Source of the DNA: Ulota crispa
Lineage: Eukaryota; Streptophyta; Bryopsida; Orthotrichales; Orthotrichaceae
Direction: 5' to 3'
Assembly (NCBI GenBank): GCA_963920765.1
Contig: OY987244.1
Location: 14,510,501-14,574,500 of the forward strand
DNA length: 64,000 nucleotides
Both the position numbers and the translations under genes were made by a program. This document shows positions 2,563 to 63,861 of this stretch, in pieces. The number at the start of each line of letters is the position of its first letter. Position 1 is the first letter of the stretch. The notes beneath the pieces were generated by a model, which did no database searches, was not told the origin of the DNA, and saw only the letters and a list, made by a program, of their open reading frames with translations.

Positions 2563-2947
2563 TTAACGTCTAAACGTCAAGCTGATCACTCATTGTGACT
2601 GCCCCTCTACATTAGGATTATAACAACACTAAAGTGATGTGGGAAATGCCCACACATTATGATATTGTTTTTGAAAGTTGCATAAGTCAACTGTGCATAT
2701 TGCTCTCACAAAAATTGCAAGAAGGGTAGCATGGAACCTAGCACCATCTTTGTGAATCTTCTCACAATTTGGGTGACTTGAAAATATGAGTGCATTTAGT
2801 GAGGTTGTTTTTGCTTTCCATGATAAATCATGTCTCGGTGATCACTTCTAAAAACTATTAGATGAAAAACAACATTTTCCATCCTACAGTATATATTTTT
2901 TGTTATCCATCAAACAAAAAATGTTTACCTTGGCATTTATGGGTTAA
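2563..2947. mobile_element. TTAA-flanked MITE, 0.28-0.39 kb family
   Basis: TTAA at 2563-2566 and 2944-2947; ends CGTCTAAACG / GGCATTTATGGG. Internal blocks match 18157-18433 and 59296-59668 (TTGTGAATCTTCTCACAATT; GTGATCACTTCTA). Its right TTAA also serves the next element. Confidence 0.75.
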
Positions 2948-3172
2948 CTCCTAAACATCCCATGAGCATGAGCATAGTACATACGTTGTTGAATAATTAA
3001 CATTAACTACCAACAAAAAAATTGAGTTTAGGATCTCAAATAGCTCAGAACCACATTGATCTATATTCCAACTTTTTTTTGTTGATCTCAAATAAAGGTG
3101 TAGATCCATTTCCAAATACAATACCTTGTATTGTACTAGCTGCAAAGGCTCTTTCAGACGCTTGGTGGTTAA
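2944..3172. mobile_element. TTAA-flanked MITE, 0.23 kb family
   Basis: Begins TTAACTCCTAAAC and ends ...TGGTGGTTAA. The interior (CTACCAACAAAAA, ACATTGATCTATATTC, GTTGATCTCAAATAAAGGTG) matches 41388-41617. It abuts the previous element through a single shared TTAA. Confidence 0.72.
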
Positions 3173-3619
3173 TCTGATACCTCAAACTCAAACAGAGGTT
3201 GCGGTACTTGTTTTGGAATGTTGTGATGTGATTGGTGTGAGGAGATTTTGTGATGGTATGGGTGGACTTTGAATCTAATTAAGACTGTGTGATCTCTCGG
3301 TATCAGGCTTGCTGTTGGGGTTGTTGTTAGCACAATAGTAGTAGTTATTTTTTTAAAGTCTTTTGAGGCCCTTGTAATACTCATATTACAATGGGCATTT
3401 GGGGCTGTTCATGAGGTCATTTGGGCTGGGATTTTGGTTTAAAAGGTCCCAATTTTTCATGCCTCGCCTCCTTATGTAGAGCCGTCCTAAGATTAATTGC
3501 ATAACCGTGCGTTGGGCCACCATATTTTGCTTCAAGCACTAAGCCCTGCATGCTTTGGGCACCTTGGAAGGAGCCGTAAAATGAAGAAGTTGTGTGGAGC
3601 AACATGTTTTTGCTTGGGT

Positions 3620-4562
3620 TTAACCCCTATAGGACCAAGGGTGTTTTTCAAGAAAAAACAAACTGCAAACTTTTAGTGCATTGCCCAAAATTGAAAATAA
3701 AAATACTTTTTCTCAATTTCAACCGTACAAAGTGTGTAAAACATATAAATTATCATGTGCAAAAAACTTAGCTCATTTGACCATGCAGATTGTAAGATTA
3801 TAACGTTTGAAGTGAGAAAAACAACTTTTTTTCAATCCTGCAAAACAAGGTCAATAGACTTTGAGCCTTCCTAGAGTAAAAGTTTTTGCTCTATACAAAA
3901 TTGAGCTTTTGACCATTCATAAGTATATGATGTTAGGTTCACTCACGAGAATTTTCAGAAGTAAATATAGAATCTAGCTTATTCTAAATCACCATGCAAT
4001 GCAAGGAGGTTTAGTAAATCGGCAATGCATTAGTCATTCTTTCATGATTTCTTGTGCAATGAGAAATTCCTTTTTTTGAAATTTGAACTGTAAAAAAGTT
4101 AGAGACAAACATCCGGAATATGTGAAAAAAAATTCAAGAGCTTTGGATTTATAGATTGAAAGATAATAGGGCCTAAAGTTAGAGGAATTGCTTTTTTTGA
4201 AATTGCCTAAACATAGTTAACAAAGTTTGACTCCCTTCAAAATGTGATGTGAGAGCTCAATTTTTATTTTATTTTTTGACAATTGTTCACCATGTTTTTT
4301 TAGTTACATATTTGCCAAATTTCAAAAGTTGATGAGAGTCTTAGCATTAGATTTTCCAAAGATGCTCAAACTGCCCAATTTCTTTTGGGCAACATAACTT
4401 TTGAACCGGGCATCCAATTGGGGAAAAATTTACATTTCCACTTGAGAGATACATATTTATATCTTATATAACAATTTTGAAAACATCCAATAAAATTGAC
4501 CCCAAATGACCATACCCAAGTTGTCAAGTGGCTGTTGAACAAACAGCCACTTTGTCCTTTAA
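3620..4562. mobile_element. TTAA-flanked MITE, 0.94 kb family A (reverse copy)
   Basis: Begins TTAACCCCTATAGGACCAAG. The interior is the reverse complement of 8892-9855 (the same CACCATGCAATGCAAGGAGG stretch in both). The far end has lost its terminal GGGG: GCCACTTTGTCCTTTAA. Confidence 0.82.
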
Positions 4563-6433
4563 TCTCTTCCAAAGCCTGGATTTTTTTGCCTGGATTTTTT
4601 TCTCTGATTTAGAGGCAGTTAGGATATCAATAAGTGGAGGGAGGTCATGCTAGTTAGGTCTTCCTAAGTAGAGTCGAGTGAATCGTTCACCCAAAAATTA
4701 GTTCTGAATTTAGATAAGTATTTTGAGAGAGTCCACAGCAGGGTTTTCTTTTTGTATTTGTCGAGGTAGAGCGACTCACACCCTGGACCTCACGCAGGTA
4801 AGGAAAAATTGCCTATAATTGGAAAGAATGAATGAGGTGTGCTTGTTCATCCAATATATTACTAATACAAGCTACTTTCATTCAAAAACTGGCAAATCTG
4901 GTGTGTGAGGAAGGAGGGACTTGGCAAATTCATCCACTTTTTTCCTGAAATTTCTTAGTATATTGGGAGCCGGTGACAATTTCAAGTAAGATTCTGGCAA
5001 AAGTTCGCCAAAAAAAAAACCCTAGTCCACACTCTTGAGGCAATTCACACTACTTCCCATGTCCCGTTCAAATTTGTGAATTTGATTAGTGTAGAGTCAA
5101 AACTAAATGGGACTTAGTGATTTGCACTACATCCCATGTTGTGGTTATTGGCATTTTGTTTACATGGCAACTTTTTCTAGAAGTTTTGGTGCCGAAGAAG
5201 GTGGGGCTTCTCTCAAATTTTGGATTAACCATTTTGTTAAACTTAACTTTTAGCCCAAGTCCCACTAATATATTTACCTAAGAGATATTTAAGATTTTCT
5301 TGGGAATTCTTTGTTACCCTTAATAACCCAACTAAACTGGAATCTCACGTTGAAGTGAAACTGACAAAGATGGAATGTGGGACATAGTGTGAACCGCCTC
5401 TTGGACTACATCTTATGGAATGAAGTTAATTCAATTGGCTTAACCTTTCATGTGCTATCCTTTAGTACCAGTTCAATGACATATTGGTTGTTTCAAAATG
5501 AACGCACTCTTCACCTTGAACTGATCGACTAACTTAACTTGGTTTACTATTCATCTATTTTAGTACATTGAATTTTTACAGTATTCCATTTTATTAAACC
5601 AATTTGTTCTCTAAATTTTTATGTTGGTTTCTTAGACAACTTTACAATATGGATACTTCAACTCTAAATTGATCGATTCAGTTTTTGTAAAAAATAAAAA
5701 TATAATCTCAAACCAAAGAGACATAAAGAGGGGAATGTTATATTGTGTGCAAAGACTTGTGAGTCGTGAGCTGTGAGCTTATATTTCTTGTCAAAATACT
5801 AAACTTCACTTATAATCATGTACATAGGGTTCTGTAATTGTGCATTTTAAACTTTTATCATTTGAAAAACTTATCATTTTTCAAAATTTTATTGATTTTG
5901 AGTTAAGGATTGGGTCTCGATTATTGAATCTTGGCTCACCGCTCATGGCTTACCGTTTCACACTCTCAAGATAGTGTTGTTCAACAATTGTCTTCATGAA
6001 ATGAGGTTGGGTCAAGGTTTGACAAGGAAATAGCTTTGCCCCTCAAACCTTTGGGCAAAATCCTAAAATTTGGGATGCAATGTAAATAAATGTGCTTGTG
6101 CTGCCTTACAAGCAAAGAAAAGTATAGATTCCATCATAACTTTTTTTTACATATTGAAAAGGTTTGAAAATTGTTGAATTGGAAAGATACTCTTCAAACA
6201 CACATTCTCTAAATTTTTTGTGAAGAAATGTTGATTATTCTATAAGTGATAGTGTGCCCCAAATTGTTGTGTTGTTGAAAATGCTATTTGGTCTGTTAGG
6301 TGTTAAAATTTGGCCATACAGTTGGAAATTAAAACTACAAACTAAAGATCCGTGGGTAAAGGAAATCCAGTGATTACTTGAATTTTGGAATTTAGTATGG
6401 AACCTTTTATTAATCAAAATTTATGTTACATAT
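4563..6433. other. Gene-free AT-rich spacer with an inverted-repeat element
   Basis: No supported gene. Holds the 5036-5402 element. A 4730-5030 stretch (CGAGGTAGAGCGACTC, GGCAAATCTGG, CTGGCAAAAGTTCGCC) has relatives at 50905-51080 and, reversed, 58150-58240, so it is dispersed repeat DNA. The remainder shows nothing I can name. Confidence 0.5.
5036..5402. mobile_element. MITE-like inverted-repeat element
   Basis: The left end GAGGCAATTCACACTACTTC and the right end ...GACATAGTGTGAACCGCCTC are imperfect inverted repeats of about 28 bp. The interior also repeats CACTA(C/T)ATCCCATG. The target duplication is not clear. Confidence 0.55.
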
Positions 6434-6583: not shown

Positions 6584-8030
6584 TATTGTAAAAACGTCAA
6601 AATCAGGACCCACTTGAGTTCGAGATAATTCATTGAGTTCATTAACGTTGTATTTCTAAGACCATCAAGCTTGAATATGATTTTTGTCAAAGGTAGAGCA
6701 AATCGAACTACGGAATCGGTCATTTATATACATGAAGTTTTGTTATTTATGTTTGATAGGTAACTATAATAGAAACACGTTCTCCAATGAATCATACCAT
6801 GAGGCATACCACATATTGTATTTGATATGGATTGTGACTCGCCATTCGTAAACTTGCAAGAACCTGGTTCTATTGCATGTGAGGTTTTTATAAATACAAG
6901 ATAGGATGTAAATATAGAAAATATATTTTTGAGATGAAAATTTGATGGGTACTTTGCATTGTTTGAGTGTAAAACTAAAAAGCCATTATATTGGAACCAT
7001 ATGTGTGTCTTTCTTGATTCGCCAACCACCCAAATAAACAAAATCAATCCCAAAGTCCGAGTTTACAATTTAAGGATTTTAAACCAATGTGATCTTTGGT
7101 AACTTTGTTAGGCTAATTTTCAAAAAGCCAAAAGTGGATCATAACTTTTTGAAAAGCATTAACTTCTATGACCATGATGGGTAACAAATAGATTTCGTTA
7201 CAACAGGGAATGACGCGGACTTTGGCCTAATTATAAATTCAATTCAATTTTCTAATTCTATCTCAATCAAATATTGCTAAAACTTGAGATACTCCAAGCT
7301 ATGCTCCTTTGGCAAAAGATTCGATGCCAAGAAACTCTTAAGAAAAAATAATTTCAACAAAGATATTGCAAATATGCCAACAAACTCAAAGTATTCATAA
7401 TAAATGTAGTTATATGATACTCTTCACCAATTATATAAAAACCTTTATTTGAACTAAAAAAATACTGAAATGCCTCAATTTTGTTTCCAGAAAATTAGGC
7501 AATTCAATATCATTAGCTAAAATAAGAAATGGTTTGTTATTTAACCCTTGAACGGCTTGAAGACCCTTTCTCGTTATATGTACAAGTTTAATATGTATTA
7601 ATCATGATCACATAATGTTTCAATTTTTATTGTGAAACCCTTAATTATCAACCACTATCACAAAATGCTTCAATCTTTGATGTTGTTTTGCACTTCTTGA
7701 AATTTGGTGAAGAGAATATTTAACTGATACAAACTTGTATCTCCAATGCCCTAGCGCCATTCAGGGATTAAGCCTATGCTCTTGGATTTTTATTGTCCTA
7801 TATTGATATGTCCCTTGCTCAATCCTTTATTGTCCACATGGAATAAAATGTCCATTTTTATACAATATTAGTCAAACAAAAGTAATCTTGAAGGTTGGAT
7901 AAAGTCCTATTATTGCTCTTAGAAATAGAAAATCCATTCTATACATATTGTTGGAATTGCTTCAACAAGAAATCAGTTCCTTTATAAGCTTTTCAAGAAA
8001 AAAATATACATTTTATCCTAAGATTTGTCA
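6584..8030. other. Gene-free spacer with weak open frames
   Basis: AT-rich. The minus strand between 7053 and 6724 is open for 109 codons and includes a residue run ICGMPHGMIHWRTCFYYSYL, which could be an old exon relic. I recognise no family and see no exon partners. Otherwise nothing identifiable. Confidence 0.35.
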
Positions 8031-8765
8031 CCCTAAAGGCCCAAGCACTATTATTTGACAACATATGGATTTTGGGCAACTCCTACTAGTGGATGTTTCA
8101 TCTTTTTTCTTTGAAATTTCACACATGTTGTGCCCAAGGGATAGCTTTGAGGTCCAAAATATTTCATAACTTTTGACTACATGGTTCAAAAGTTATTGCA
8201 TGATATGTTGTTTTCTTTGAACTCTGGGCAGCCTGGGCAGCTCAAAAAACTTCTTTAAAAATGACATTTTCTTGAATTTTTTTTTGGAGTTGGGGTTTTA
8301 GACTTACATGTACATGGGAAGCTTTGAAACATTGGATTTCAATAAGTGAGGCAAAAGTTACAAGAAGTTTTAGTTTGCAAGTAGGTATGGAGTCCTTCTA
8401 AACCATACCTACCTGCAAACTAAAACTTCTTGTAACTTTTGCCTCACTTATTGAAATCCAATGATTCAAAGCTTCCCATGTACATGTAAGTCTAAAAACC
8501 CAACTCCAAAAAATAATTCAAGAAAATGTCATTTTTAGATTTTTGAGCTGCCCAGGCTGCCCAAAGTTCAAAGAAAACAACATATCATGCAATAACTTTT
8601 GAACCATGTAGTCAAAAGTTATGAAATATTTTGGACCTCAAAGCTATCCCTTGGGCACATCATGTGTGAACATTTCAAAGAAAAAAGATGAAACATCCAC
8701 TTGTAGTGAGCTGCCCAAAATCCATTTTGTCCCTTGAAGGGACAAGTGGGCTTTTAGGGGGTTAA
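8031..8765. mobile_element. Large foldback element with CCCTAAAGG ends
   Basis: Arms of about 325 bp (8065-8390 and 8403-8725) are near-identical inverted repeats around a 12-bp centre (AGTCCTTCTA core). The outer ends are CCCTAAAGGCCCAAG (8031) and CTTTTAGGGGGTTAA (8765), so it carries termini of the TTAA group. The interior (GCAGCCTGGGCAGCTCA, CTTTGAGGTCCAAAATATTT) is related to the 0.94-kb elements at 40451 and 54772. Confidence 0.85.
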
Positions 8766-8891: not shown

Positions 8892-9855
8892 TTAACCCCT
8901 AAAGGACCAAGTGGTTGTTCAACAGCCACTTCAGAACTCGGGTAGGGTCATATGAAGTTAACTTTTATTGGGTGTTCTCAAAATTGTTACATAAGATGCA
9001 AATATGTATCCCGTAAGTGGAGATGTAATTTTTTTCCAATTTGATGTCCGCTTCAAAAGTTATGTTACCTAAAAGAATTTGGGCAGCTCAGGTAGCTCAA
9101 GCATCTTTGCAGAATCTTATGCTAAAACTCTCATTAACTTTTGAAATTTGGCAAGTATATAACTAAAAAAAACATAATGTGCAATTGTCAAAAAATAATA
9201 ATAATAAAACTCTCACATCACATTTAGAAGGGAGTGAAACTTTGTTAACTATATTTGGGCAATTTCAAGAAGAAAAAAATCCTCTAACTTTAGGCCCTAT
9301 TATCTTTCAATCTATAAATCCAAAAATCTTGAAACTTTTTTTCACATATTTTGAATGATTGTCTCTAACTTCTCACCATTCAAATTTCAAATAAAATACT
9401 TCCTCATTGCACAAGAAATCATGAAAGAATGACTAATGTATTGCCAATTCACTAAACCTCCTTGCATTGCATGGTGATTTAGAATAAGCTAGATTCTATC
9501 TTTGCATCTGAAAATTTTCATGAGTGAACCTAACATCATATACTTGTGAATGGTCAAAAAGCTCAAATTTGTGTAGAGCAAAAATTTTACTCTAGGAAGG
9601 CTCAAAGTTTGCTAACCTTATTTTGCAGGAATGAAAAAAAGCTATTTTTGTCACTTCAAACATTATAATCTTACAATCCACATGATCAATTGGGCTGAAT
9701 TTTTTTGCACATGTTAACTTATCTATTTGACACACTTTTGTGCTGTTGGAATTGAGAATTTTTTTTTTTGTTTTTTCAATTTTGTGCAATGCACTAAAAG
9801 TTGGCAGTTTCTGAGGTTTTTTCTCGAAAAACACCCTTGGTCCTTTAGGGGTTCA
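8892..9855. mobile_element. TTAA-flanked MITE, 0.94 kb family A (forward copy)
   Basis: Begins TTAACCCCTAAAGGACCAAG, ends CTTGGTCCTTTAGGGG followed by TTCA (one base off TTAA). Sub-terminal GTTGTTCAACAGCCAC is palindromic. It provides the empty-site sequence for the nested copy at 47012-47926: GCTAAAACTCTCAT near 9120. Confidence 0.88.
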
Positions 9856-10764: not shown

Positions 10765-11664
10765 TGAACCCTAAATGCTTGAGGCACTATGTTTAGGTGT
10801 TTAGGAAATGTTGAGACCTTGTTGAAGGTAAAGATTTTATTTTATTTTTAATTCTTTTTTTGGAGAAGATGCAATCTAAAGTTAGCTTCAATGCTCAATT
10901 TTTATGTCCTCCATATTAAGTTCCAATTGTTTTTGGTGGAAGATAACCTGCAAGCATGCCTCTTGCACATCAAAAAGTGCAATGAATAGTGTTACTAAAG
11001 AGCCTATGACAAGTTGCCACATTGAAAAGATGAGTAACAAATTGAGAATAAAGTGAAGATTTCCCTTAGGCACTCCCTTGGACAGTGAAGGCCCTTTTAT
11101 TGAAAATTCATCATTTAACAAAATCCAAATGTGTTTTTGGGCTAATTTCACTTCGAATGTCTTTGTTGTACAAGTTAGAATTCATTCACAATTGAGTTTT
11201 CTTTCATTCATAATGATTTTTGGTTAATAATTGCAACTAAACATTTTCTTTGTAACAGGTGGTAGCTATTTAACAATTGCATTGCAAGCACATTTGTAAA
11301 ATTGTGATCATGGATTTGGAAGGGGAGTCATTAGCTTTGAAGTAACAACAACAAACACCAAAACATTGTAAGTGGTTGTTTCGCAATTTTCTACTTGAAA
11401 GTTGCCCATTTTGCATTAGAAGATTCAGATAGCTCTAAGGAAACCAAAAAAAACTGTACTCATGCACACTTAACCCCAAATATCTTAACATCTACATGAC
11501 TTTTTTAGGAATTTTTTTGGCAACACTATCTACAAGCCTTGAGGTTCAAGATCATGTTGTTACAAATTTTTGTCAATATTTAATAATAATCTTACAAGGA
11601 CAGTTCCAAAACAAAAAAGGCCATCCTAAATTGAGAAAAGCACCTTCAGGCATTTAGGAGTTAA
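10765..11664. mobile_element. TTAA-group MITE, 0.9 kb 'ATGCC' family
   Basis: Left end CCCTAAATGCTTGAGGCAC after TGAA; right end ...CAGGCATTTAGGAG then TTAA (11661-11664). The interior is the reverse complement of the 42137-43014 copy. It shares its right TTAA with the following element. Confidence 0.75.
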
Positions 11665-12573
11665 CCCTTTAACAACCACACCCATTTTCACAAAATCCAC
11701 TCAAAACAGGGGTTGTAAGCTTAGATTTGGAGTTGACTCAAATATTGACCCATTTTCAATAATCCAACCGTACAAATGGGAAGTACACCTTGTTTATTGT
11801 AAAGCACCAAAATTTCAGCTAGATCTACCATTGGAGGTGAAATATTATAATGATTGAGTGAGCCGTATGCAGAAAATCTCTTGTGTTTCATTCTTTTATA
11901 GTTTTGAATGTTAACCTTTCATGCAAGCTTTGATTGAGAAGAGCCTTACATTTCTAGAAAGCAAGGTTTCCCACCTTTCCAACAAGACTAGTTTCACATA
12001 AAATAGACAAAAATAGCAATCACAAGGTGTAGCTAAGTGGACAAAAATGGTCAAAAATCCCACTTTCTTTGCTACTTTAAAAAGGTTCTACATGAAATTT
12101 AATAACTGTAATGGAAAATCCAATCGGTGAAAACAATCAAGAATTGGCCTTAAATGTAAGATGACAAATTTTAAAACCAAAATGACAACAACATTTTAGT
12201 AGATTTTCAAATACTACAATTATACTACTACCAAATATGAAAACAATACAAGCATATTTCTTAAGCAATTTGAATTTTTTTAGAATTGTGCAGTTGAAAT
12301 TTGACATTCTTCTTGCATACTTGATATATTGTGTTGTTGCTTTGATCCATATTTGACAAAAATTGGATACATATTTTGAAGCCATGCCGTATAAACACCA
12401 TTATTTGTCAACTCACATACCCAATTGCATTGTTATTTTTTAGATGTATACAAAATTCTTGTGATCACATGCGTACTTCAAAACCAAACTCCAAATTATT
12501 GAACAATTTCAACCTACAAGCCAAAAGTATTCCCAGCGACCAAAATATGGTCGCGTGGTCCTTAAAGGGTTAA
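11661..12573. mobile_element. TTAA-flanked MITE, 0.91 kb 'CGACCAC' family, copy 1
   Basis: TTAA at 11661-11664 and 12570-12573; ends CCCTTTAACAACCAC / GTGGTCCTTAAAGGG. Very similar over its whole length to 47012-47926, with only scattered substitutions and small gaps, so these two copies moved relatively recently. Confidence 0.9.
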
Positions 12574-14636: not shown

Positions 14637-14644
14637 GCGTCGCT

Positions 14645-17600: not shown

Positions 17601-18768
17601 CGAAGCTGAGCTGTTCCACATGGTGGCTACTGCTGGTGTTATTGATGACCGACCTAGTTGTTTCAGGTATCCGAGAGGCAACGGAATCGGCGTTCAGTTG
17701 CCCTTAAACAACAAGGGCATTCCCATCGAGGTACATATACATATATACTCATTATTTTCAAGCACTTGAGAGTTCATTATCTTGTTTTTCATGTTTTTTG
17801 CATTGTTTTTACTTTCGTGGCGTTTTTGAGTGCAGCTTGGCAAAGGACGAATCTTGCTGGAAGGCACGGAGGTTGCACTCTTGGGATACGGTACCATGGT
17901 ACAGAACTGCCTTGCAGCTCACGCTCTGCTTGCCGAGTTGGGAGTGTCAGCGACCGTCGCTGATGCTCGGTTCTGCAAGCCCCTTGACCGCGACCTCATT
18001 CGGCAGCTTGCGAAGAACCACCATGTGCTCATCACCGTGGAGGAGGGTTCAATTGGTGGCTTCGGTTCTCATGTTGTGCAGTTCATGGCTTTGGACGGAC
18101 TTCTCGATGGCAAGCTCAAGGCAAGTCTATCATCCATTTGAATTTTGCTTTCATGTTTAACCCCTAGACGCCAGGCTGGTCAGTTACATTTTATTACTGT
18201 TTTCAGAAGTTGCAGAAATCAATAGTGCATGCTCTCCTCATGAAAACTATGGGCAGCATGGGGTTAAAAAGACTGTTTTATGAATCTTCTCACAATTTGG
18301 GTCACCGTTTTTTTGCCTTCCATGATAGACCATGTCTTCGTGATCACTTCTAGAAAAAAATCAGCCATTCTACATAGTATTTTTTTGTTACCCATTAGTA
18401 GGAAAAACGTCTGGCTCGGCGTTTATGGGTTAATAACTCTTTTCATACCTTTGAGTTGTGAAATAGTCTGAATTGCCGAAATGCTCATTTACACATCTCT
18501 AGTGGTCATAGATCTCTGGAAGTATTGTTATGTATTAGATACTTTTGTGTGTATGTTGTTTGTGCCGTTGCAACTGTGAACCTGTTCTTACGGATTTTGC
18601 TTTGGTTGTTCTTAACAGTGGAGGCCACTGGTGCTTCCTGACCGCTACATCGAACACGGCGCTCCCAAGGACCAGTATGCTGAAGCAGGTTTAACTGCCG
18701 GTCACATTGCAGCCACGGCGTTGAATGTTCTTGGGAAAACAAGAGAAGCGCTGCAAGTGATGTCGTGA
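14645..18768 (+). CDS. DXS: 1-deoxy-D-xylulose-5-phosphate synthase, plastid precursor (10 exons)
   Basis: Joins pyruvate and glyceraldehyde 3-phosphate with thiamine diphosphate, the entry step of the plastid MEP isoprenoid pathway. Exons: 14645-14785, 14871-14999, 15146-15310, 15974-16124, 16231-16502, 16609-16882, 17032-17339, 17449-17730, 17836-18120, 18619-18768. They join in frame to 718 aa, the usual plant DXS length. Residues 1 to about 55 are Ala/Ser/Thr/Arg-rich with few acids, as in a chloroplast transit peptide. Visible motifs: [16 protein letters not shown] across exons 3/4, the thiamine-diphosphate signature GDGAMTAGQ (215-223) with downstream NN (229-230), the transketolase glutamate in [10 protein letters not shown] (E448), and [13 protein letters not shown] in exon 8. 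The start is the first ATG opening the transit peptide. Introns are GT-AG except the last (18121-18618), which begins GC and carries a MITE. Intron 2 holds a duplicated acceptor. Function is near certain; the class (DXS1/2/3) is not resolved. Confidence 0.97.
15063..15170 (+). repeat. Duplicated splice acceptor and exon start in DXS intron 2
   Basis: The sequence around the start of exon 3 is present twice, 83 bp apart: an AG followed by GAATTGAAACAACTGGCTGA at 15063 and again at 15146. The flanking text (TGCAATT..., GGGTTTTAAT..., TGTTT) is repeated too, so this is an approximate 83-bp tandem duplication. Only the second copy continues into ...[18 protein letters not shown]. Use of the first acceptor shifts frame and meets TGA at 15150-15152. 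Confidence 0.9.
18121..18618 (+). other. GC-AG intron of DXS
   Basis: Exon 9 ends ...GGCAAGCTCAAG and the intron starts GCAAGT. Exon 10 begins TGG (W) after ...CTTAACAG. Only the GC donor keeps phase 0 and gives the conserved [15 protein letters not shown] junction. The nearest GT, five bases downstream, would break the frame. AG|GCAAGT is the well-known strong GC-donor context. A TTAA-flanked 277-bp element makes up over half of the intron. Confidence 0.9.
18157..18433. mobile_element. TTAA-flanked MITE inside DXS last intron
   Basis: TTAA at 18157-18160 and 18430-18433. Imperfect terminal inverted repeats CCCCTAGACGCC / GGCGTTTATGGG. Internal text (TGAATCTTCTCACAATTTGGGT, then a CCATGATA..CCATGTCTTCGTGATCACTTCTA stretch) matches the elements at 2563-2947, 34510-34877 and 59296-59668, placing it in the 0.28-0.39 kb family. 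Confidence 0.85.
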
Positions 18769-20209: not shown

Positions 20210-20228
20210 TTAGTGGAATGTGATCTAA

Positions 20229-20573: not shown

Positions 20574-20659
20574 TAATAGCACTAATTTGGATCACATTTT
20601 TTCTTGAGTTCATTAGGTTCATTGTGCACTTATGCTAATGGGCAAAGGCTTATTAGTGA

Positions 20660-46779: not shown

Positions 46780-48633
46780 TTAACCCCTAAAGGACCAAGT
46801 GTTTGTTCAACGGACATTTGAGAACTCACGTAAGGTCATACAAAGTCAAGTTTTATTGGATGTTCTCAAAATTGTTACACAAGGTGTAAATATGTATCCC
46901 CTAGGTGGAAATGTTTTTTTTCCCCCAATTGGATGCTCAAATCAAAAGTAACATTGCCTAAAAGAATTTGGGCAGCTCATGCAATTTGGGCATCTTTGGA
47001 AAGTCTATTGCTTAATCCTTTAACGACCACACCCATTTTCACAAAATCCACTAAAAACAGGGGCTGTAAGCTTAGATTTGGAATGGACCCATTTTCAATA
47101 ATCCAACCGTACAAATGGGAAGTACACCTTGTTTATTGTAAAGCACCAAAATTTCAGCTAGATCTACCATTGGAGGTGAAATATTATAATGATTGAGTGA
47201 GCTGTATGTAGAAAATCTCTTGTGCTTCATTCTTGTATAGTTTTGAATGTTAACCTTTCATGCAAGCTTCGATTGAGAAGAGCCGTACATTTCTAGAAAG
47301 CAAGGTTTCCCACCTTTCCAACAAGACTAGTTTCACACAAAATAGACAAAAATAGCAATGACAAGGTGTAGCTAAGTGGACAAAAATGGTCAAAAATCCC
47401 ACTTTCTTTGCTACTTTAAACAGGTTCTACATGAAATTTAATAACTGTAATGGAAAATCCAATTGATGAAAACAATCAAGAATTGGCCTTAAATGTAAGA
47501 TGACAAATTTTAAAGCCAAAATGACAACAACATTTTAGTAGATTTTCAAATACTACAATTATACTACTACCAGAAATGAAAACAATACAAGCGTATTTCT
47601 TAAGCATATTTCTTAAGCAATTTGAATTTTTTAGAATTGTGCAGTTGAAATTTGACATTCTTCTTGCATACTTGATGTATTGTGTTGTTGCTTTGATCCA
47701 TATTTGACAAAAATTGGATACGTATTTTGAAGCCTTGCCGTATAAACACCATGATTTATCAACTCACATATCCAATTGCATTGTTATTTTTTTAGATAGA
47801 TGCAAAATTCTTGTGATCACATGCGTACTTCAAAACCAAATTCCAAATTATTGAGCGATTTCAACCTATAGGCCAAAAACCACTCCCAATGACCAAAATA
47901 TGGTTGCGTGGTCCTTAAAGGGTTAAACTCTCATCAAATTTTGAAATTTGGCATGTATGTAACTAATAGAATATAGTATACAATTGTCAAAAAAAAAGTG
48001 AGTTCTCAAATCACATTCTAAGAGGAGTCAAACTTTATTAACTTTGTTTGGGCAGTTTCAAAAACAGTAATCTCTTCTAACATCATGCCCTATTATCTTG
48101 CTATCTCTAATCTCAAAGTTCTTAAAACTTTATTCACATATTCCAAATGTTTGACTCTAACTTTTTACCATTCAAATTTCAAATAAAGAACTTCCTCATT
48201 GCACAATAAATCATGAAAAAATGACTAGTGTTTTACCAATTCACTTAACCTCCTTGCATTGCAAGATGATTTAGAATAAGCTAAATTCTATATTTATTTT
48301 TGAAAATTTTCATGAATGAATCTAACATCATATAGTTATGAATGGTCAAAAACCTTGTTTTTGTGTAGAGCAAAGATTTTACTCCAAGAGGGCTTGAAGT
48401 TTGCTGACCTTTTTTTGCAAAAATGAAAAAAAAGTTGTTTTTCTCACTTTAAACGTGATAATCTTTCAATCCGTACAGTCAAATGGGCTGAAATTTTTAC
48501 CACACATTGAATAAATATTTTACTATGGTTTTGTATGGTTGAAGTTTCCAAATAATGTTTTGATCAACATACCCAAGAAAACGCTGTTTTTGAATTGTTT
48601 CTTGAAAAATGCCCTTGGTCCTTTATGGGTCAA
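46780..48633. mobile_element. TTAA-group MITE family A, interrupted by a second MITE
   Basis: TTAACCCCTAAAGGACCAAG at the left, CCTTGGTCCTTTATGGGTCAA at the right. Without the nested 47012-47926 insertion it is about 0.94 kb and collinear with 8892-9855. Confidence 0.88.
47012..47926. mobile_element. Nested TTAA-flanked MITE, 'CGACCAC' family, copy 2
   Basis: TTAA at 47012-47015 and 47923-47926; ends TCCTTTAACGACCAC / GTGGTCCTTAAAGGG. The host reads ..TCTATTGC[TTAA]ACTCTCATC.. across the site; uninterrupted copies read GCTAAAACTCTCAT (9120) and the equivalent reverse near 4345. This shows precise insertion with a TTAA duplication. Confidence 0.93.
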
Positions 48634-48866: not shown

Positions 48867-49788
48867 TTAACCCCTAAAGGACCAAGCAAAGTTTTCACCA
48901 AAAACTCTTCAAAACTGTCATTTTTAGAGCATCAACCAAATTCAAATACAAAAATATTTTTATGCATATGTGACTGTGGGATCTTGTAGAATTGTGGTTT
49001 TATAAAATGTGGAAAAAAATTCAGAGTTTTTCACCATGTGGATTGGAAGTTAGAATGGTTTGAATATCCAAAAATGTTTTTTGAAAAACTGGGCAACTAC
49101 CCTTCAGAAGGTGAAATTCCTAAGGAAAAAAGGCCATGTGGGTGGTGCTTCTCTAAATTCCTTATTCCACCGAAGTAAAGTACATGTCAAAAAAGTTTCA
49201 AATCATTTGGAGTTGTATAACATATAGAAAAAAATTAGTAAGTAAAAAGAAGTAAAGAGTGATTCAAAACACTAAATTGTGAAAAATTTAATAATGGAAA
49301 TAAAAAATGCCGATCCCAATGGTCATAATGTTGTCATAAACAGTCTTCATCCTTTGGTTTTGTTCTTTTTCCAAAATAATGAAAATTGAATAAAATAAAG
49401 GACTTCAAAGTTTATTTTGGAGTAGAGAATCCATAACTGCCTTCAAACAAAAAATCCTCATAACTTTCATCTCGTTGATCCAAACAGAATGATTTCAAGC
49501 TTCCTACATTCACAACAATCTCCTAAACCAATTTTTAAAATTTGTTTTTGAAAAAATTGTTTTTTAAAAATCTACCCAGGCTGTCCGCCGAACGTAAAAA
49601 ACAACATATTAGGCTATAACTTTTTACTCATAACTCCAAGTGTCATGAAATTTAGTGCATATGAAAGGTTAACCTCATCCCCACATTCTATTAAAATTTT
49701 AGCCTAAAATATGAAAAGCTCCAATCACAGGTACTTGCCCAAAATTGCTATGTTTCTAAAAAAGGGGGTTTGGTCCTTTAGGGGTTAA
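48867..49788. mobile_element. TTAA-flanked MITE, 0.92 kb 'CCAAGCAAAG' family
   Basis: TTAACCCCTAAAGGACCAAG ... TTGGTCCTTTAGGGGTTAA. The interior is the reverse complement of 57207-58132. Confidence 0.9.
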
Positions 49789-51325: not shown

Positions 51326-51972
51326 GCTTGCCCTCCACCACATTGGTAGGAAATCATCATGAGGAAACATGGTGATTTTCCTTTTACGTATTGACCTACA
51401 AATTTCCCCATATGTGCAAGTAGTCAAAATAGTGCTCAACCAATAACATGTCTCCTTGGTTCAAAAAGTAAATAGATTCTTCATCATTGCTTACCCAAAC
51501 TATTCATTGATTAAAGAAAAGCAGTATTTAGAGGAATTGTTATGCACCTAAAAAAATACAAATTTTGCAATGCAAGAAAGAATGTTTTAACACCATATTC
51601 ATTAGAATGGGAGATTGGGCACCTCTCATAATAACCATGTTGATCTCAACTTGAATTGGCAATTTCCATTAAAAATAGAGTTTTCAGCTAAATTGACATA
51701 AAACCTTCTAATTTTAGGTCAAATTTGAAAAGTTTTAAATAAAACCTTCTAATTTTAAATTAATTTTGAAAGATTTTATTGCAATTTAGCTCGACTTGAG
51801 CTAAATTGCAATAAAACCTTTTGTCATATTTCCTTTCAATTACCTCTCAATTCAGTGGAAATCTTCCATTTTAATGAATATGGTGTTTTTTGGGGGTCCA
51901 AGCATTAATTGCTCTCTTTTCATATAAAAGCGGCCCCAATCATGGTGTTGCACAATACAAGTGAAGATGCTC
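51326..51972. mobile_element. Reversed GAGCATCTCC-type MITE carrying a nested element
   Basis: Reverse relative of 20229-20573 and 51976-52322, ending GAAGATGCTC just before the TAA that starts the next copy. The left end is degraded (CCCTCCACCACATTGG). Interrupted by 51589-51886. Confidence 0.65.
51589..51886. mobile_element. Nested MITE, ACACCATATTCATTA termini
   Basis: ACACCATATTCATTAGAATG and its inverse CATTTTAATGAATATGGTGT bound about 298 bp. The neighbouring uninterrupted copy (about 52045-52075, reverse) shows the empty site GAATGTTTT|GGACGGTCC, suggesting a T-rich duplication (TTTT). Confidence 0.78.
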
Positions 51973-51975
51973 TAA

Positions 51976-52322
51976 GAGCATATACACCTCCACTTGTCCT
52001 GCAAAACCCTATGTTAGGGACACTTTTGGATGAAAAGAGAGCAATTAATGCTTGGACCGTCCAAAACATTCTTTCTTGCATTGCAAAATTTGTATTTTTT
52101 AGGTGCATAACAACTCCTCTAAATACTACTTTTCTTTAATCAATGAATAGGTTGAGTAAGCAATAATGGAATCTATTTACTTTTTGAAACAAGGAGGCTT
52201 GTTATTGGTTGAACACTATTCTATCTAATTATAGGGGTGAAGGAAATTCTCACTTCAAGACGGGAAACGAGATTCAAGATGTTTCCCCAAGATGAGAAAC
52301 TACATGTGTGGTGGAGATGCTC
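51976..52322. mobile_element. TAA-flanked MITE, GAGCATCTCC family, copy 2
   Basis: GAGCATATACACCTCC ... GGTGGAGATGCTC with TAA at 51973-51975 and 52323-52325. It lies head-to-head with the reversed copy on its left, separated only by TAA. Confidence 0.83.
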
Positions 52323-52383: not shown

Positions 52384-52704
52384 TAAGGTAGCATCACTTA
52401 TAACAGTCAAATTAAGGGTTTTGAACGTGATGATTATTAATAAACATCTAGCAAATTATACAGTCCTATTAGCAAGACAAAAAAATGAGTTTGCGCTTTT
52501 GAATGTATTATTTGGATATTGTGAGAATAAGTTCTAAATTTTTAAAGAGCCAACTGCAATTGCACCTAATACCAACATACACTAAAGTTTCATGTTCACA
52601 TACTGTACATCCTTGTAATTACATCTATTTACTTCCACATATTTTCCAAGATTTTAGAGGTGATGGTTGTGGGAACACTGATGCTTATGGATGCTGCGAC
52701 CTTA
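52384..52704. mobile_element. TA-flanked MITE, AAGGTAG..CACCCATAA family, copy 3
   Basis: TA-AGGTAGCATCACTTATAA ... CTTATGGATGCTGCGACCT-TA, collinear with 20660-20977 throughout, with more diverged ends. Confidence 0.8.
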
Positions 52705-52925: not shown

Positions 52926-54771
52926 CTAACCTCTAAAGGACAATTGTCCGTTGAATAGACAATTGAAAATTTGGGTAGGTTCCTAGGAAGTCAATTTTAG
53001 GTGGATATTTTTGAAATTTGGAGACAACATGTATACAATGAATACCTTTGTGTAAAAAAAACCCCTTTGATCACATGCCCAAATAAAAAGTCGTGATGCT
53101 TGAAATGATGCAAACTACTTGCACAACATGGAGGAAACAAAAAAATTGCCCAAAATTAGCTTCAATGGTAATCTTGGTGGGGTCTAGGTGAGGGCCTTGG
53201 TGAGGGGTCTTGGCAAAGGTCTTTGTAGGGGTTTTGGCAAGAGACTTGGCAAATTGTTTTTTATCCTATTAGACCTAACATGTTGAACGTGTTTGTCATG
53301 TATGTTCATGAGTGTAAGAATGGTGAAGAGTAGCAAAGGAAAAATGATGCATCTCCAATTTTGTTTACAATTATGCAAAAATTGTTTGCATGACTGGAGA
53401 GGGCAAAATTACTAGAAACCACTAAGCTGCAATGAATATTGTTACTTCTCAACCTCTAGTTTGAGAGGAAATTATGTGGTTTGCAATAATGGCAAGACAC
53501 AATCTCACAAATTTTGCCAAAATTGCAATGGCAAGTATATGTGTGGCCGTAGAGGATGATTTGAAAAATATCATGATAATCTTCACCCTCAAAGCAAAGA
53601 AATTGCAAATGATCTTTTAATTTTTAGTTTTTGTGTTTAAATATTTTTAGGAGACAATCTAAGCCATTTGTAATGAAATTTTTAGCAACTAGCAATTTGT
53701 TTAGAAAACTAAATCAAGCAAATCTTATAGTTTATTATTGAATAATGGGATTAACACAAAGTTTATCTCTTTATTGAACAAAAGGACATTTAGGAAGTCA
53801 ATCTTCCCATCTATCTTGCTTAATTTATGCATGAGACTTCAAGATTATGAATTGTGGCAAAGCTTGAATTAGTATAATTTTGCAAGGTTTTGTGATTTTC
53901 TAATATATATTTTTTGACTACTGTAGGTTCATAGCAGATTTGGCAAAATAATTCAGAAAAGCTTAGCCGAATAATTCCAGATTCCATTCTTCAAAAGTGT
54001 CCAATGTCAAATAAATCAAAAACTTGAAACTCCGAAAAGTGAAAAAATCAGTAGCTATGCATACTAATGCTGTAACTAATTCCAGAAGGCAGGGACCATT
54101 CCAGGAGGGCTGCAAACTCTGCGCTTAGTTACTTACATCCACCTAACAAACTGCTGAAATCTTAGGGTTATTTTAGGGCTAGCCAACATAGATGGATGAT
54201 TTTGAATAAAATAATCTTCCCATATCCTACCAGAAAAAGTGGTTAACTGCCGAATATTAGTATTTTTTTTGAAAGAGCCAAAGCGTTATTTAATTAAAAA
54301 AGTAATGCCAAATGATTTTTTCTCAAAAATTATTAAATTTGGCAGTGAACTGCCGTATTTGCTATGAACCTACAGTACTAGAGTAAATGAGGTTACATCA
54401 TTTTACTATTTAGATTTGTGAAAAAATAAATTTTGACTATGCAAGAAATTTTTAAAGATTGGCTAGTGTATAGTTGTTTCCTTTGACCACCTTGTAATTT
54501 TAGCTCATTTGACATAAGTTAGGCATCTCAATTATATCTGAAATTTTGACTAGTTGAACCTAACATCATATATTCATGAATGCCTAAGGGGGCTCAAAAT
54601 CTGCTCTTCCTTTTGGGCAGGGCCAAAAAGTATATATTTGTAAAATTATGAATGTTATAATCTTTTAATACTTGTGGTCACATGGGCTAAAGTAAATGCC
54701 ACACATTGACTTACCCCTTTTTTAACTCTTTTTTGCGGTTGGAATGCAAAAGAAAAGTTTTGATTTTGGAT
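52926..54771. mobile_element. Truncated TTAA-group element(s) with nested insertion
   Basis: Starts CTAACCTCTAAAGGACAATTG; 54480-54770 resembles the right half of 8892-9855 (AACCTAACATCATATA.TC.TGAATG) but lacks the GGTCCTTTAGGGG end. Interrupted by 53920-54376. Whether this is one element or two remnants is unclear. Confidence 0.5.
53920..54376. mobile_element. MITE, ACTGTAGGTTCATAGCA termini, 3-bp ACT duplication
   Basis: ACTGTAGGTTCATAGCAGAT and its inverse TTGCTATGAACCTACAGT, flanked by ACT at 53917-53919 and 54377-54379. 457 bp, non-coding. Superfamily uncertain. Confidence 0.8.
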
Positions 54772-55713
54772 TTAACCCCTAAAGGATTGTTTGTCCATTC
54801 GGGGACAAGTGGATTTTGGGCATGTACCTATGGTTAAACTATTTTGTGCAATTTTTTGAAACTTTTATTGTAGGTGGGGAATTCAAAGATCTATGTGGGC
54901 ATCTAATTTTTTCTTCATTTTGACATTTGACGAAGAAATTATGCATGATTTCATGAAAATTTGGGGAGGACTGCCCGTTTGGGCAGCCCAAAAATTTCTT
55001 TAAAAATTACATTTTCTGAATTTTGTTTTTTGAAATTGATTCTTTAGATTTTTTTATACATGAGAAGCTTTGAATCATTCAATTTCAATCAATGAAATGA
55101 AAGTTATGAGGAGTTTTTGTTTGCGGGTAGTTATGAATTCTCTACTCTAAAATAAACTTTGAAGTCCTTTATTATACTCAACTTTCATTATTTTGGAAAA
55201 AATAAATAAACCTAAGGAAGTAGATTGTTTATTACAACATTGTAACTGTTGGGATTTGCATTTTTCATTTTAATAATTAAATTCTTAGCAATTTAGTGAT
55301 TTGACTCATTCTCTACTTCTTTTTACTTACTATTTTTTTTTCTCATGGGTTGTATAGTTCCAATTGATTTGAAAATTCTCCCACATATAACTAACTTGAT
55401 CTCCTACATGGGAAAAATAAAACCTCAACTTTGCGTACATTAATTTTTTTGATATAAGAGTGGTCAAAGACTTCTAAATTTCTGGGCAGAAGGGAAAAAA
55501 ACTTTTTTTTTGCACTTTAAATGTAAATATCTCACTCCTCTCCATCAAAATTGACTTTATTTTTTCCCACAAGTTCCTCTAGCAATCTAGAGCAAGATCC
55601 TACGGCTGGATTTTAAAAAAAAAACAAATTTTCTTACTTTTTTACTCATTCCCCAGAAGTGGCAATTATCAATTACTTAACTTGAAAAAAAGGCTAAGTC
55701 CTTTAGGGGTTAA
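54772..55713. mobile_element. TTAA-flanked MITE, 0.94 kb 'TTGTCC' family
   Basis: TTAACCCCTAAAGGATTGTT ... AAGTCCTTTAGGGGTTAA, perfect TTAA at both ends. Collinear with 40451-41391. Confidence 0.88.
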
Positions 55714-57206: not shown

Positions 57207-58132
57207 ATAACCCCTAAAGGACCAAACCCCCTTTTTTAGTAACATGGCAATTTTGGGCAGGTACTTGTGATTGGAGACTTTCATATTTTAAGCTGAAATT
57301 TTAATAGAATGTGGGAACAAGGTTTGTTTTTCATATGCGCAAAATTTCATGACATTTGGAATTACGAGTAAAATGTTATAGCCTAATATGTTTTTTTTTT
57401 TTTTCACTTGGCAGGTAGCTTGGACAAATTTTTAAAAATCACTTTTTTCAAAAACAAAAATTTGAAATTGGTTAAGGAGATTTATGTGAAAGTGGGAAGC
57501 TTTTAATCATTCTGTTTTTATCAATGACATGAAAGTTGTGAGGAGTTTTTGTTTGCGGGAAGTTATAGATTCTCTACTCTAAAATAAACTTTGAAGTCCT
57601 TTATTTTACTCATTTTTCATTATTTTGGAAAAGAAACAAAGCCAAAGGATGTAGGTTGTATATTACAACATTACGAGCATTGGGATTGAGGTTTTTCATT
57701 TCCATAATTAAATTCTCAAAAATTTAGTGTTTTGAATCATTCTCTACTTCTTTTTACTTACTATTTTCTTCCCATATGTTATATAATTCCAAATTATTTG
57801 AAACTTTTTTGACATGTACCCTACTTAGGCGGAATAAGGAATCTAGAGAAGCACCACCCACACGGCCTTTTTTCCTTAGAAATTTCACCTTTTGAAGGGT
57901 AACTGTTTAGATTCTCACAAGATGTTTTTGAATATTCAAATTGATGTATCTTCCAATCCACGCGGTGGAACATTCTGAATGTTTTTCCAAATATTCTCAA
58001 GCTATCCTAATACAAGATCCTACAGTTACATGCGGATAAATGTGTTTTTGTTTTCAAATTTGGTTGATGCTTTAAAAATGACAGTTTTGAAGGGTTTTTA
58101 ATGAAAGTTTTGCTTGGACCTTTACGGGATAA
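57207..58132. mobile_element. TTAA-group MITE with ATAA at both ends
   Basis: ATAA-CCCCTAAAGGACCAAACC ... GCTTGGACCTTTACGGG-ATAA. Reverse relative of 48867-49788. The flanks are ATAA at 57207-57210 and 58129-58132. Confidence 0.87.
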
Positions 58133-59295: not shown

Positions 59296-59668
59296 TTGAC
59301 CCTTAAACGCCTGGTTGGTCAATATGACCAACCCCTCTACAATGGTTCTATTGTGCTTTGCAATTGTCCACTCATTATAATACTATCTTTAAAAGTTGCA
59401 ATACTTAATAGTGCATAATGACCTCATGAAAATTGTAAGAAGGACAACATAGAACCAAATACCATATCCCTAAATCTCCTCACAGTTTAAATTACTTAAA
59501 ATTTTGAGTGCATCTAATGAGTTAATTTTTTGTCTTCTATGATGGGCCATGTGTTTATGATCACTTCTGGAAAAAGAAGAAGATGAAAAATAACTTTTTC
59601 CATTCCACAAAGCGTTTTTCTGATATGCAGCGGGCGTGTTTTTGTCCACCTTAGCGTTTAGGAGTTAA
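59296..59668. mobile_element. TTAA-group MITE, 0.28-0.39 kb family
   Basis: TTGA-CCCTTAAACGCCTGG ... CCTTAGCGTTTAGGAG-TTAA. Contains TTGGTCAATATGACCAACC palindrome. Related to 2563, 18157 and 34510 copies. Confidence 0.78.
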
Positions 59669-61190: not shown

Positions 61191-62261
61191 CGCATCAGAA
61201 ATAGCATATAAACTGCTAAATTGTAGAAGATGGCGGGTGGGCGCAGTGATTGGAGAGAACACGGGTTAGCATTTCAAGCTATTTTGAAGCACCAAGTATG
61301 CCAAATGAAAAACTAAGGTGCATACAACCATTTGCCGATTGCCTACAATCGCAAGGATCTTATATGGGCTCATACCTCCACTTAGAGATTGAGCAATACT
61401 GTCGAGGGTGGCCAGATTTTGAGAACTTGCAGGTTCAATGGTTATTGCTTCAATTCTTAGGAACCATTAGTGACATTGGCTCAACATTTATCAAGTTATC
61501 ACTTTTTGAGTTCAGAAAAACAATTTGCAATGAGGAGTTCTTTGGTATCAATGAGCAATTTCATTGCAAAAGGTTCAATCATTTGAGGTACGCTTGCTTG
61601 TGTGTAAGATTATTGCAATCGGAATTTTGACTAGCAAAAAGTCTTCATATAAGCTTGCAATTCATTATTGATGTGTTTCAAAAACTCTATGATGCTGTAT
61701 GGTGGCTTTGCCAGAACATTCTATAGTTGTATATGCCCTATCCCTTTGCCACATCACAAGCTCAAGTGAAACACATAAGTACAATGTTTGCTTCATTGAC
61801 AACTTGCTCATTGACTTCTGATACGGCCAAATACTCTGTTGGTTGAGACCTAGTAATTCAATTCCATACATCTCCAACGTAGAAACTAACCGTTCCAATT
61901 TAAGACACCAAGACAAATGTGGTCACAAAAGTAGGAATTCTAGCAAATGCAATAAAGGCAATGCATGGTTTAGACTTGAAAAATGGTTCTCTAGAAAATA
62001 TCCATATTACTGTAGTTTCCTTTTTGATCTTATGTTGATAACTACTCCCGCCACAAACGTCGCACCCAATGCCAATTTGGGAGGTCGTAGTCCACGTTGC
62101 CATGTACCCTGAGACCCAATTATCCTTTGGGTGCACAACCCTGCAGCAAACATACATACATCATAGACTTTGGATGTATAAACTTTGCTCAATCTCTACA
62201 GATTGATTGGCTACAATGGTCGAGCACCTCAAATCATTGGAGAGAGCATTGATATAAGGAT

Positions 62262-62985
62262 AGTTGCAAGAAACACTTCATAGTTTTGTCTCAAACACCC
62301 TTAGTACTGGTAGTATTAGGTAGTACTATGAGCTTTTGAAACTTTTTTTTATAGATAAAACAAAATATGGAAAATTTGTAAAGCACTTAAAATAGCATGC
62401 TCGTGAAAATTCAAACCTAGAAATTTTTTATTCTAAAATTTATGCATAAAACAAAATCACCAACAAAAAGCCAATTTCTTTCTTGCTTTTTAGAAAATAG
62501 TAAAATAATTCAAAAAAATTAAATAAAATTTGGCCATTTGAGAACCCATTAAACACATTCACATGGTACAATTGCTTTGCTATGGAACTTCTTTAGATTT
62601 TGCCAATGAAGGGAGATAGGATGCCCACTTTGAGACAATGTAGATGCCATGGAATTTATAATTTGCAAAACCCTTCTACATATGCATGTAGGCATGCTCC
62701 ATAAACAACATCCCTAATTTATAGCCCTAGAAAAGCTTTTTTGGACCCAAAATAGTACTAAAAACCCCCAAAATGGCCAAGGTAGACACCTATTTGGGGG
62801 ATGTTCAAAAATAGTAATATACTTTTAAAATAACTGCAAAAATTATGGAAGGTTTGTAACTATGACATGTACCTTTTTCTAAAATTTCAGCTCAAAAGAA
62901 CATGTTGCGCAAAAGTTACAAGCCAAAAAGCACCTGCAGGAGGTGAAGGGGACAAAAAATAGTACAAGTGTTTCTTGCAATCACC
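62262..62985 (-). repeat. 0.73-kb dispersed repeat, inverted copy of 23924-24657
   Basis: Reverse complement of 23924-24657 over its length, with small gaps. Runs from AGTTGCAAGAAACAC to CTTGCAATCACCC. Confidence 0.7.
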
Positions 62986-63207
62986 CACAAGCTCCACCAA
63001 ATGCTAGCCCAATCCATGAAATGCAACACCTCTGAATACACTCTAAACCTCTTGTATTGACCACAATGGCACACTAGGTCATTTAGAGGTTAATCCCAAG
63101 ATTTCCAATAAGTGTTGTCATGTAGGTATTTCTAAGTGAACCAATAATCATAGCCTAGAATTTGAGTACAAAGCTGTCTCAATTCCAACCCTTCAATTAG
63201 TTCACTT

Positions 63208-63861
63208 TTAACCCCTAAATGCCCAAGGCACCACATTTTGGTGTCAACAACACTTTAAACTTTTGCAAAATTTAACTAAGTTTATATTTTAAGTAGTTAA
63301 TGTTTTTGAACTATTCTTTTTGAAGTCTAGTATTGGCATCAAAAATTTGATTTTGAAAAAAAATTATCATGACTTTTCTATTCAAGATTTTATCCAAGGG
63401 TGTCCATTGCAATCTTGACATTTTTAGTGTTGAGAGCTCTTCAAAATGAGCCTCAAATACACTAGATCCTACATAAAATTTTACACTACAAATTCATTTA
63501 AAAATTTTGAAGAAGAAATTTTAAAAAGCTGTAAGTTGATTGGAATTATGCATGTAATGTTCCTTAACTTCATATCTTTTTGGTGACCATGTTTTTAGGT
63601 TTGACATGTGAAAGGCGGAATGAAAGACTTCAAGTCATTTTTGCAATTTTAACACCCTTTTGATCAAATGTTATAATCTTTCAATCCAAAAGAGACGTTG
63701 ATGAGTTTTCTTTTCCTAAGTGATCTTTAACATATCTAGTTCAAATTTGTACACTTACAATTTTAAAAAAACTTATACAACTGATCAAAAATTTGGGTTT
63801 TTGTTCAATTTAGAACAAATTCCTCAGAGCTCAAAATAGGCCTTAGGCATTTAGGGGTTAA
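63208..63861. mobile_element. TTAA-flanked MITE, 0.65 kb 'ATGCC' type
   Basis: TTAACCCCTAAATGCCCAAG ... CCTTAGGCATTTAGGGGTTAA, perfect TTAA at both ends; interior not closely related to the 0.9-kb copies by eye. Confidence 0.88.

Follow-up and report, generated by a model that had tools for sequence, protein, structure and literature searches.

Miniature TTAA elements in the Ulota crispa genome and their likely piggyBac partners

Miniature elements of the window

The stretch of Ulota crispa DNA analysed here (64,000 bases of contig OY987244.1, called the window throughout) is rich in miniature inverted-repeat transposable elements (MITEs) that lie next to TTAA, and their relation to piggyBac transposons is our subject. 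About 23 delimited elements, one of them nested in another, cover 14,786 of the 64,000 bases (23.1%). Their ends mostly pair as plus and minus termini 231 to 964 bp apart. Uninterrupted two-ended elements of 231-964 bp, inverted termini and thousands of exact ends genome-wide mark them as MITEs, and terminal inverted repeats beginning with CCC, a feature of piggyBac, are present. The 20-mer TTAACCCCTAAAGGACCAAG, allowed up to four mismatches, has 24 sites on the two strands of the window; in five first-order random sequences of 64 kb each, scanned on one strand, there were no sites at this threshold and four at five mismatches.

A preliminary description, made by a model from the letters of the window, had listed 21 element starts. 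On re-reading, exact TTAA stands at 17 of them, a one-base variant at three (TGAA at 10765, ATAA at 57207, TTGA at 59296) and none at one, 8031, whose element spans about 8026-8765. The element listed at 41388 was also recovered, with exact TTAA and its position corrected to 41387. Some starts depart from the described CCCCTAAA or CCCTTTAA, among them 2563 (CGTCTAAA) and 34510 (ATCCTAAA). The starts at 46780 and 47012 had been counted as separate elements; 46780-48633 is a single element with 47012-47926 nested inside it. Two pieces, 43575-43707 and 52926-53019, were missing from that list. Families were drawn by hand from a self-BLAST of the window, and the elements are as follows, with strand given where one was assigned.

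8892-9855, plus strand: family 1 MITE, 964 bp, TTAA on the left and TTCA on the right
3620-4565, minus strand: family 1 MITE, right terminus decayed, 85% to 9853-8900 (self-BLAST)
46780-48633, plus strand: family 1 MITE, interrupted by 47012-47926 (self-BLAST)
47012-47926: family 2 MITE with ends of CCCTTTAA type, inserted in a family 1 copy and displaying the TTAA duplication
11661-12573: family 2 MITE, 95% identical over 901 aligned columns to its sister 47012-47926
10765-11664, plus strand: family 3 MITE, one TTAA common to it and 11661
42137-43014, minus strand: family 3 MITE, matches the 3′ end of the L013 element
63208-63861: 654-bp MITE with CCCCTAAATGCC ends, sharing ends with family 3; sister at L010 8901-9554, 82%
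48867-49788, minus strand: family 4 MITE, 83% to 58132-57208 (self-BLAST)
57207-58132, plus strand: family 4 MITE (self-BLAST), matches piggyBac element ends
40451-41390, plus strand: family 5 MITE, matches piggyBac element 5′ and 3′ ends
54772-55713, plus strand: family 5 MITE, matches piggyBac element 5′ and 3′ ends
43891-44811, plus strand: family 5 MITE, matches piggyBac element 5′ and 3′ ends
52926-53019, plus strand: fragment with family 5 / piggyBac 5′ end (self-BLAST, element comparison)
8026-8765, minus strand: foldback element, piggyBac-like 5′ end on the right side, left end without TTAA
2563-2947: family 6 short MITE, TTAA at both ends
18157-18433: family 6 short MITE, TTAA at both ends
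34510-34877: family 6 short MITE, TTAA at both ends
59296-59668: family 6 short MITE, TTGA on the left and TTAA on the right
35561-35792: family 7 short MITE, CCCATGAAGGGCC / CCCCTGAACGGCC, TTAA at both ends
43575-43707: family 7 fragment (self-BLAST)
41387-41617: family 8 short MITE, TTAA at both ends; sister at L009 4372-4613, 83%
2944-3148: family 8 fragment, TTAA common to it and 2563-2947, right end not found

The preliminary description put the number of unrelated internal families at five or more. Self-BLAST gives at least eight groups, but families 1, 4 and 5 are not wholly unrelated, because one piggyBac clade has ends similar to theirs. Identity over aligned columns is 95% in family 2, 73%-87% in families 1, 3 and 4, 63-73% in family 6 and 52-67% in family 5. 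The elements are mostly old, since differences within families run from 5% (family 2) to 48% (one family 5 pair). Families 4 and 5 have in common an internal block of about 350 bp (55029-55377, 57461-57806 and 49193-49503) that is 82% alike despite greater divergence at the ends, as though the families had exchanged blocks.

TTAA as the duplicated target

Several lines of evidence identify TTAA as a 4-bp target duplication and not as part of the inverted repeat, which settles a point on which the preliminary description could have failed. The first is the nested insertion, in which the family 2 element 47012-47926 interrupts a family 1 copy that is a sister of 8892-9855. Once the element and one TTAA are removed, 51 bases round the junction align without gaps to three copies that lack the insertion (two in the window, 8892 and 3620, and one in L024, the last two aligned by eye). 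The site is four bases long because these empty copies carry TAAA or TAAG opposite the occupied TTAA.

Second, termini picked by their 13-mer core CCCCTAAAGGACC, with TTAA left out of the query, are preceded by T, T, A and A in 30, 31, 29 and 29 of 40 window sites (up to three mismatches, chance sites included), and positions beyond these four bases show no comparable bias. Genome-wide, the exact 16-mer core CCCCTAAAGGACCAAG has 3614 sites, and exact TTAA precedes 3038 (84%). Third, neighbouring elements clearly have a single TTAA in common at 2944, 11661 and 41387; the same may hold at 41614 and 63090, each with one doubtful neighbour. Directly outside TTAA, exact direct repeats exceed 2 bp in none of 25 intervals, some of them with only one sure end.

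piggyBac transposases and long elements in the genome

The same genome (274,817,297 bases in 157 contigs) holds at least 120 matches to the Pfam family DDE_Tnp_1_7 (PF13843), all above the family cut-off and the best at 1.3e-73. This count is a lower bound, with a few genes counted twice, because 116 of 528 candidates were scored. The same search gave no match in 14 control genomes. None of the 120 matches listed falls in the window, which at this lower bound agrees with the earlier statement that no transposase is encoded there. At one locus, a 363-aa open piece matches T. ni piggyBac (6x67) at 1.8e-17 over 297 residues and piggyBat (9c0f) at 1.2e-11, and its motifs IDE, LDN and GVDVADQ align with IDE, CDN and GVDTLDQ of piggyBac. 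We take these motifs to hold the catalytic aspartates D268, D346 and D447.

Ten-kilobase stretches around 19 transposase matches were taken first, and 24 loci were compared overall. All three aspartates are present at 19 of the 24, with at least one lacking in L011, L016, L017, L018 and L022; clustered C-terminal cysteines, which may correspond to the cysteine-rich domain of piggyBac, were noted in the transposase pieces of L012 and L030. On a FastTree tree of the 24 loci, terminus classes follow transposase clades, with one class for each of the five multi-member clades (classes read by eye, several loci one-ended). The class is CCCCTAAAGGACC for L012/L030-L033 (support 0.988), CCCCTAAATGCC for L013/L023/L029 (0.999), CCCTTTARNGACC for L014/L022/L024/L028 (1.0), CCCCTRAGCRCC for L011/L021/L026 (0.994) and CCCYTCATYGCC for L010/L019 (1.0). 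In the third of these clades the terminus reads CCCTTTAA; two of its four loci show both ends.

Several elements could be delimited by homology. Between L010 and L019 identity is 90% across 5029 bp, the match stopping at TTAACCCCTCATCGCC and TTAACCCTTCATTGCC in L010, and the 5′ end of L019 is TTCACCCC. A second group, whose ends are CCCCTAAATGCC, comprises L013, L023 and L029, and L023 and L029 support the ends of L013; those of L014, L024, L011, L015, L018 and L027 come from end pairs. For L012, genome transposases were ranked by similarity to its own, and four of the relatives at 53-56% identity (L030-L033) were taken for comparison. The 3′ end TTAACCCCTAAAGGACC lies downstream of the transposase in all five loci (one mismatch in L012, none in L030-L032, two in L033), and homology among L030-L033 stops at this end or within 3 bases of it. 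In the two of the five loci followed upstream, the 5′ ends are TTAACCCCTAAAGGACCATTGTCCC and TCAACCCCTAAAGGACCATTGTCCC, and homology between the two upstream regions starts within 2 bases of them. Two long elements of this class, with places computed by hand, are the following.

C8:11097229-11105483: piggyBac element, TTAACCCCTAAAGGACC class, 8255 bp
C3:27054300-27062805, minus strand: piggyBac element, TTAACCCCTAAAGGACC class, 8506 bp

Terminal bases, TTAA included, are identical at 17 of 17 positions in the 8255-bp element and 16 of 17 in the 8506-bp element. Both have stops inside their transposase matches, which may be introns or decay. Partners that carry DDE_Tnp_1_7 and matching termini were thus found for the main class CCCCTAAAGGACC and for CCCCTAAATGCC, as the preliminary description had called for; for CCCTTTAA the agreement is confined to short termini.

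Exact ends number 8154 for TTAACCCCTAAAGGACC, 3363 for TTAACCCCTAAATGCCC and 669 for TTAACCCTTTAAGGACC, more than 12,000 in total, and the same three sequences read backward do not occur in the genome. The window is richer than average, with seven exact ends of the first class in 64 kb against one per 34 kb across the genome. As a rough inference, the elements probably number in the tens of thousands genome-wide, because only a minority of the window's ends (these seven of the first class) are exact. Viral contigs searched for the 17-mer gave no matches.

Some observations on individual loci stand apart from this series. L025:111-7605 is a 7495-bp pair of TTAACCCTTGCAYGWCC-type ends around a transposase, whose open frame has 563 codons over two piggyBac matches in the genome search and 309 codons with GIDVVDQ by script. 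At L026:1231-7684 a piggyBac insertion lies at TTCA/TCAA, not TTAA, a possible non-canonical target. L009, considered as a long element for its 3357-bp pair of ends, is really a set of separate short elements. Some elements of 79 bp contain scarcely anything beyond a pair of CCCCTAAATGCCC-type ends with a short palindrome (L010:1621-1699); exact-end pairs of the same type lie at C1:241512-241590, C1:531562-531640 and C1:3362792-3362870 of the genome, the inner sequence having been read for L010 only.

MITE ends matched to long elements

The window's MITEs were compared with ten long elements of 5.0-8.5 kb; lengths below are in MITE bases. Copies of families 1, 4 and 5 have both ends in common with long elements (8.3-8.5 kb) from a single piggyBac clade and lack the transposase region. 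Family 5 copies match these elements over 144-216 bases at the 5′ end (70-82%) and 334-555 bases at the 3′ end (63-77%): 188-190 and 508-555 bases in copy 40451 (70-77%), 186-216 (75-82%) and 355-382 (76-77%) in copy 54772, and 144-148 (74%) and 334 (63-65%) in copy 43891. In family 1, the first 147-172 and the last 438-481 bases of copy 8892 (two short of the end) align at 60-63%; copy 3620 matches at the 3′ end only (431-448 bases, 62-63%), with no 5′ match, and copy 46780 stood outside the comparison. Family 4 copies match over 109-217 bases at the 5′ end and 119-159 bases at the 3′ end (62-69%), copy 48867 over 119-158 3′ bases and 109-217 5′ bases (63-69%) and copy 57207 over 109-110 5′ bases and 158-159 3′ bases. 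The foldback 8026-8765 also carries the 5′ end of the 8.3-8.5 kb elements.

Family 3 corresponds to another clade. Its copy 10765-11664 has both ends in common with the 5.7-kb piggyBac element L013 (5746 bp), with 254 bases at the 5′ end (62%) and 585 at the 3′ end (77%), and is without the transposase region. Copy 42137 matches the L013 3′ end only (598 bases, 73%), with no 5′ match at threshold, and the first 56 bases of 63208-63861 match the L013 5′ end. The family 2 copy 11661-12573 aligns with the piggyBac element L024 over just 89 columns at an end (65%), and families 6, 7 and 8 found no parent among the ten elements compared.

Origin of the elements and alternatives

Taken together, these data make it very probable that the window elements are non-autonomous members of the piggyBac superfamily. 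They were probably derived by internal deletion and mobilised at TTAA by the transposases of their clades. The piggyBac-type reading of the preliminary description is thus upheld, for the classes tested, by partner elements and by the TTAA duplication. In outline, long piggyBac elements would have lost their internal parts to give MITEs, each clade's transposase would have recognised its own class of terminus, and that transposase would have excised the MITEs and re-inserted them at TTAA. Long elements of this kind are the likely source of several window copies. Those found are parents in kind only, putative as working elements, because there are stops in their transposase matches.

Several observations weigh against this account. 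At least one stop interrupts 110 of the 120 transposase matches listed. A DDE_Tnp_1_7 partner, with stops inside the match, was found for families 1, 3, 4 and 5 only, which leaves families 2, 6, 7 and 8 without a shown parent among the ten elements compared. At the nested site the empty copies read TAAA, TAAA and TAAG, so that no empty allele reads TTAA. A simple test for end pairs around transposases was not significant: such pairs surround the transposase at 12 of 19 loci, but they are common and also turned up at 47% of 4000 positions drawn at random in the window and in 158 of 342 pairs taken across loci. The test was not used as evidence, and we therefore relied on ends defined by homology; several of the ten compared elements are delimited by end pairs alone. 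Among the 24 loci, neither L016 nor L017 has convincing ends, L012, L020-L023, L028, L031 and L033 have one end only, and the 5′ end chosen for L034 has a second exact 17-mer end 80 bp upstream of it. Finally, L026, a candidate for the autonomous family 4 element, proved to be a family 4 MITE into which a piggyBac element has inserted.

Of the alternatives, the one that survives best, though we consider it unlikely, is a de novo origin of the MITEs, with piggyBac-like ends acquired and no internal deletion. The middles of families 4 and 5 match none of the parent elements compared, and the 350-bp block common to these families, 82% alike between more diverged ends, points the same way. Against this, two L013 end pieces (254 + 585 of 900 bases) make up most of copy 10765-11664, and copies of families 1 and 5 are likewise largely covered by 5′ and 3′ pieces of long elements. 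Very improbable is a third possibility, that these are MITEs of another TTAA superfamily whose ends merely resemble those of piggyBac. Sola3 and Kolobok elements use TTAA too, and families 2, 6, 7 and 8 have no proven parent in a transposase search aimed at DDE_Tnp_1_7, with none aimed at Sola or Kolobok; but families 1, 3, 4 and 5 have 109-598 terminal or near-terminal bases in common with elements that carry piggyBac transposases, and the CCCTTTAA class is the terminus of a piggyBac clade (L014/L022/L024/L028, both ends in two of four loci). That TTAA belongs to the inverted repeat, the real duplication being TA (mariner-like) or lying farther out, is almost certainly wrong: one copy of the palindromic TTAA at each end would suit both readings, but the nested insertion adds exactly the element and 4 bp and refutes the idea for that case, adjacent elements have one TTAA in common, the 13-mer test finds the outer T and A conserved to the same degree as the inner TA, and no direct repeat longer than 2 bp lies outside in 25 of 25 intervals, some one-ended.

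A deep, home-grown piggyBac radiation in mosses, with many long-coexisting transposase lineages that each have a terminal code of their own and act as a main producer of MITEs, has in our estimate an even chance of being right; if it did take place, the place of piggyBac in land plants would be more than marginal. With its more than 100 transposase matches in several clades and more than 12,000 exact termini, this plant genome holds a class that the usual schemes for plant transposable elements would label wrongly. Its transposase lineages can also be paired with their ends one to one, in a host history separate from that of insects and vertebrates.

Other features of the window and genome

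Another repeat family, whose inverted ends are of GGTAGGAGCACCCATAA type, has copies at 20657-20980, 35247-35564 and 52394-52693 (82-87% alike), and element 35561 adjoins one of them, at the TTAA of that copy's end. Long foldbacks lie at 53-465 (187-nt arms, 91%) and 51333-52316 (nested arms, 71-100%), the latter related to 20221-20982 by self-BLAST. An 18-bp tandem repeat of 13.4 copies at 29742-29982 is open in two frames. The window also holds a DEAD-box helicase gene and a Transket_pyr exon that resembles plant DXS, and an Rfam scan of it at gathering thresholds gave no matches.

Elsewhere in the genome, matK occurs in contig C157, and matK-like sequences lie in larger, presumably nuclear contigs at C7:6541578-6542525, C9:15070410-15070988, C2:10311078-10311404 and C10:1926472-1926852, one of them with a 522-codon open frame. 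The single genome match to rpoA is in contig C2, with a 360-codon open frame, and there is none in C157. In mosses rpoA has typically moved from the plastid to the nucleus, and on this evidence the host would probably be a moss.

Comparison with known systems

The piggyBac superfamily is generally assigned to animals and to some fungi and protists. The window presents a known superfamily in an unusual host and at an unusual scale, with partners identified for the main terminus classes and not for the smaller ones. Among the papers listed by full-text literature searches with poor coverage of subscription journals, none has a title or opening of its abstract that reports piggyBac in a moss. In the text available, a P. 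patens transposon paper (PMC7466625) has no occurrence of piggyBac, a moss genome paper (PMC10619864) has only the word 'piggybacking', and the main text of a survey of MITEs in 207 genomes (PMC12550479) contains neither TTAA nor piggyBac.

The piggyBac label itself has been applied in plants, as it is here. A passage of the C-fern repeat catalogue lists 1230 piggyBac copies, 122,417 bp or 0.00% (PMC6890710), piggyBac is among the angiosperm MITE superfamilies listed in PMC10004981, and a review names it among plant superfamilies in the part available (PMC10794571). Unlike in the present genome, the passages of the fern and angiosperm catalogues give a trace amount or a bare mention, with no autonomous partner. 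Among animals, a paper on coral piggyBac-like MITEs (PMC2872659), in which 'piggyBac-like' and TTAA are frequent, concerns an animal host, and the Xenopus Kolobok T2-MITEs (PMC6004289, where TTAA occurs 23 times) are likewise long-lived MITEs, although of a different transposase superfamily.

The closest comparison is with T. ni piggyBac and piggyBat. T. ni piggyBac targets TTAA and has ends beginning with CCC, like the elements described here, and the IDE, DN and GVDxxDQ motifs of its transposase and that of piggyBat align with those of the moss. The moss elements differ from both in their plant host and in their distant sequence (1.8e-17 over 297 residues). They also differ in size, the long elements compared here measuring 5.0-8.5 kb against the 2472 bp given for T. 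ni piggyBac in the abstract of PMC10803768.

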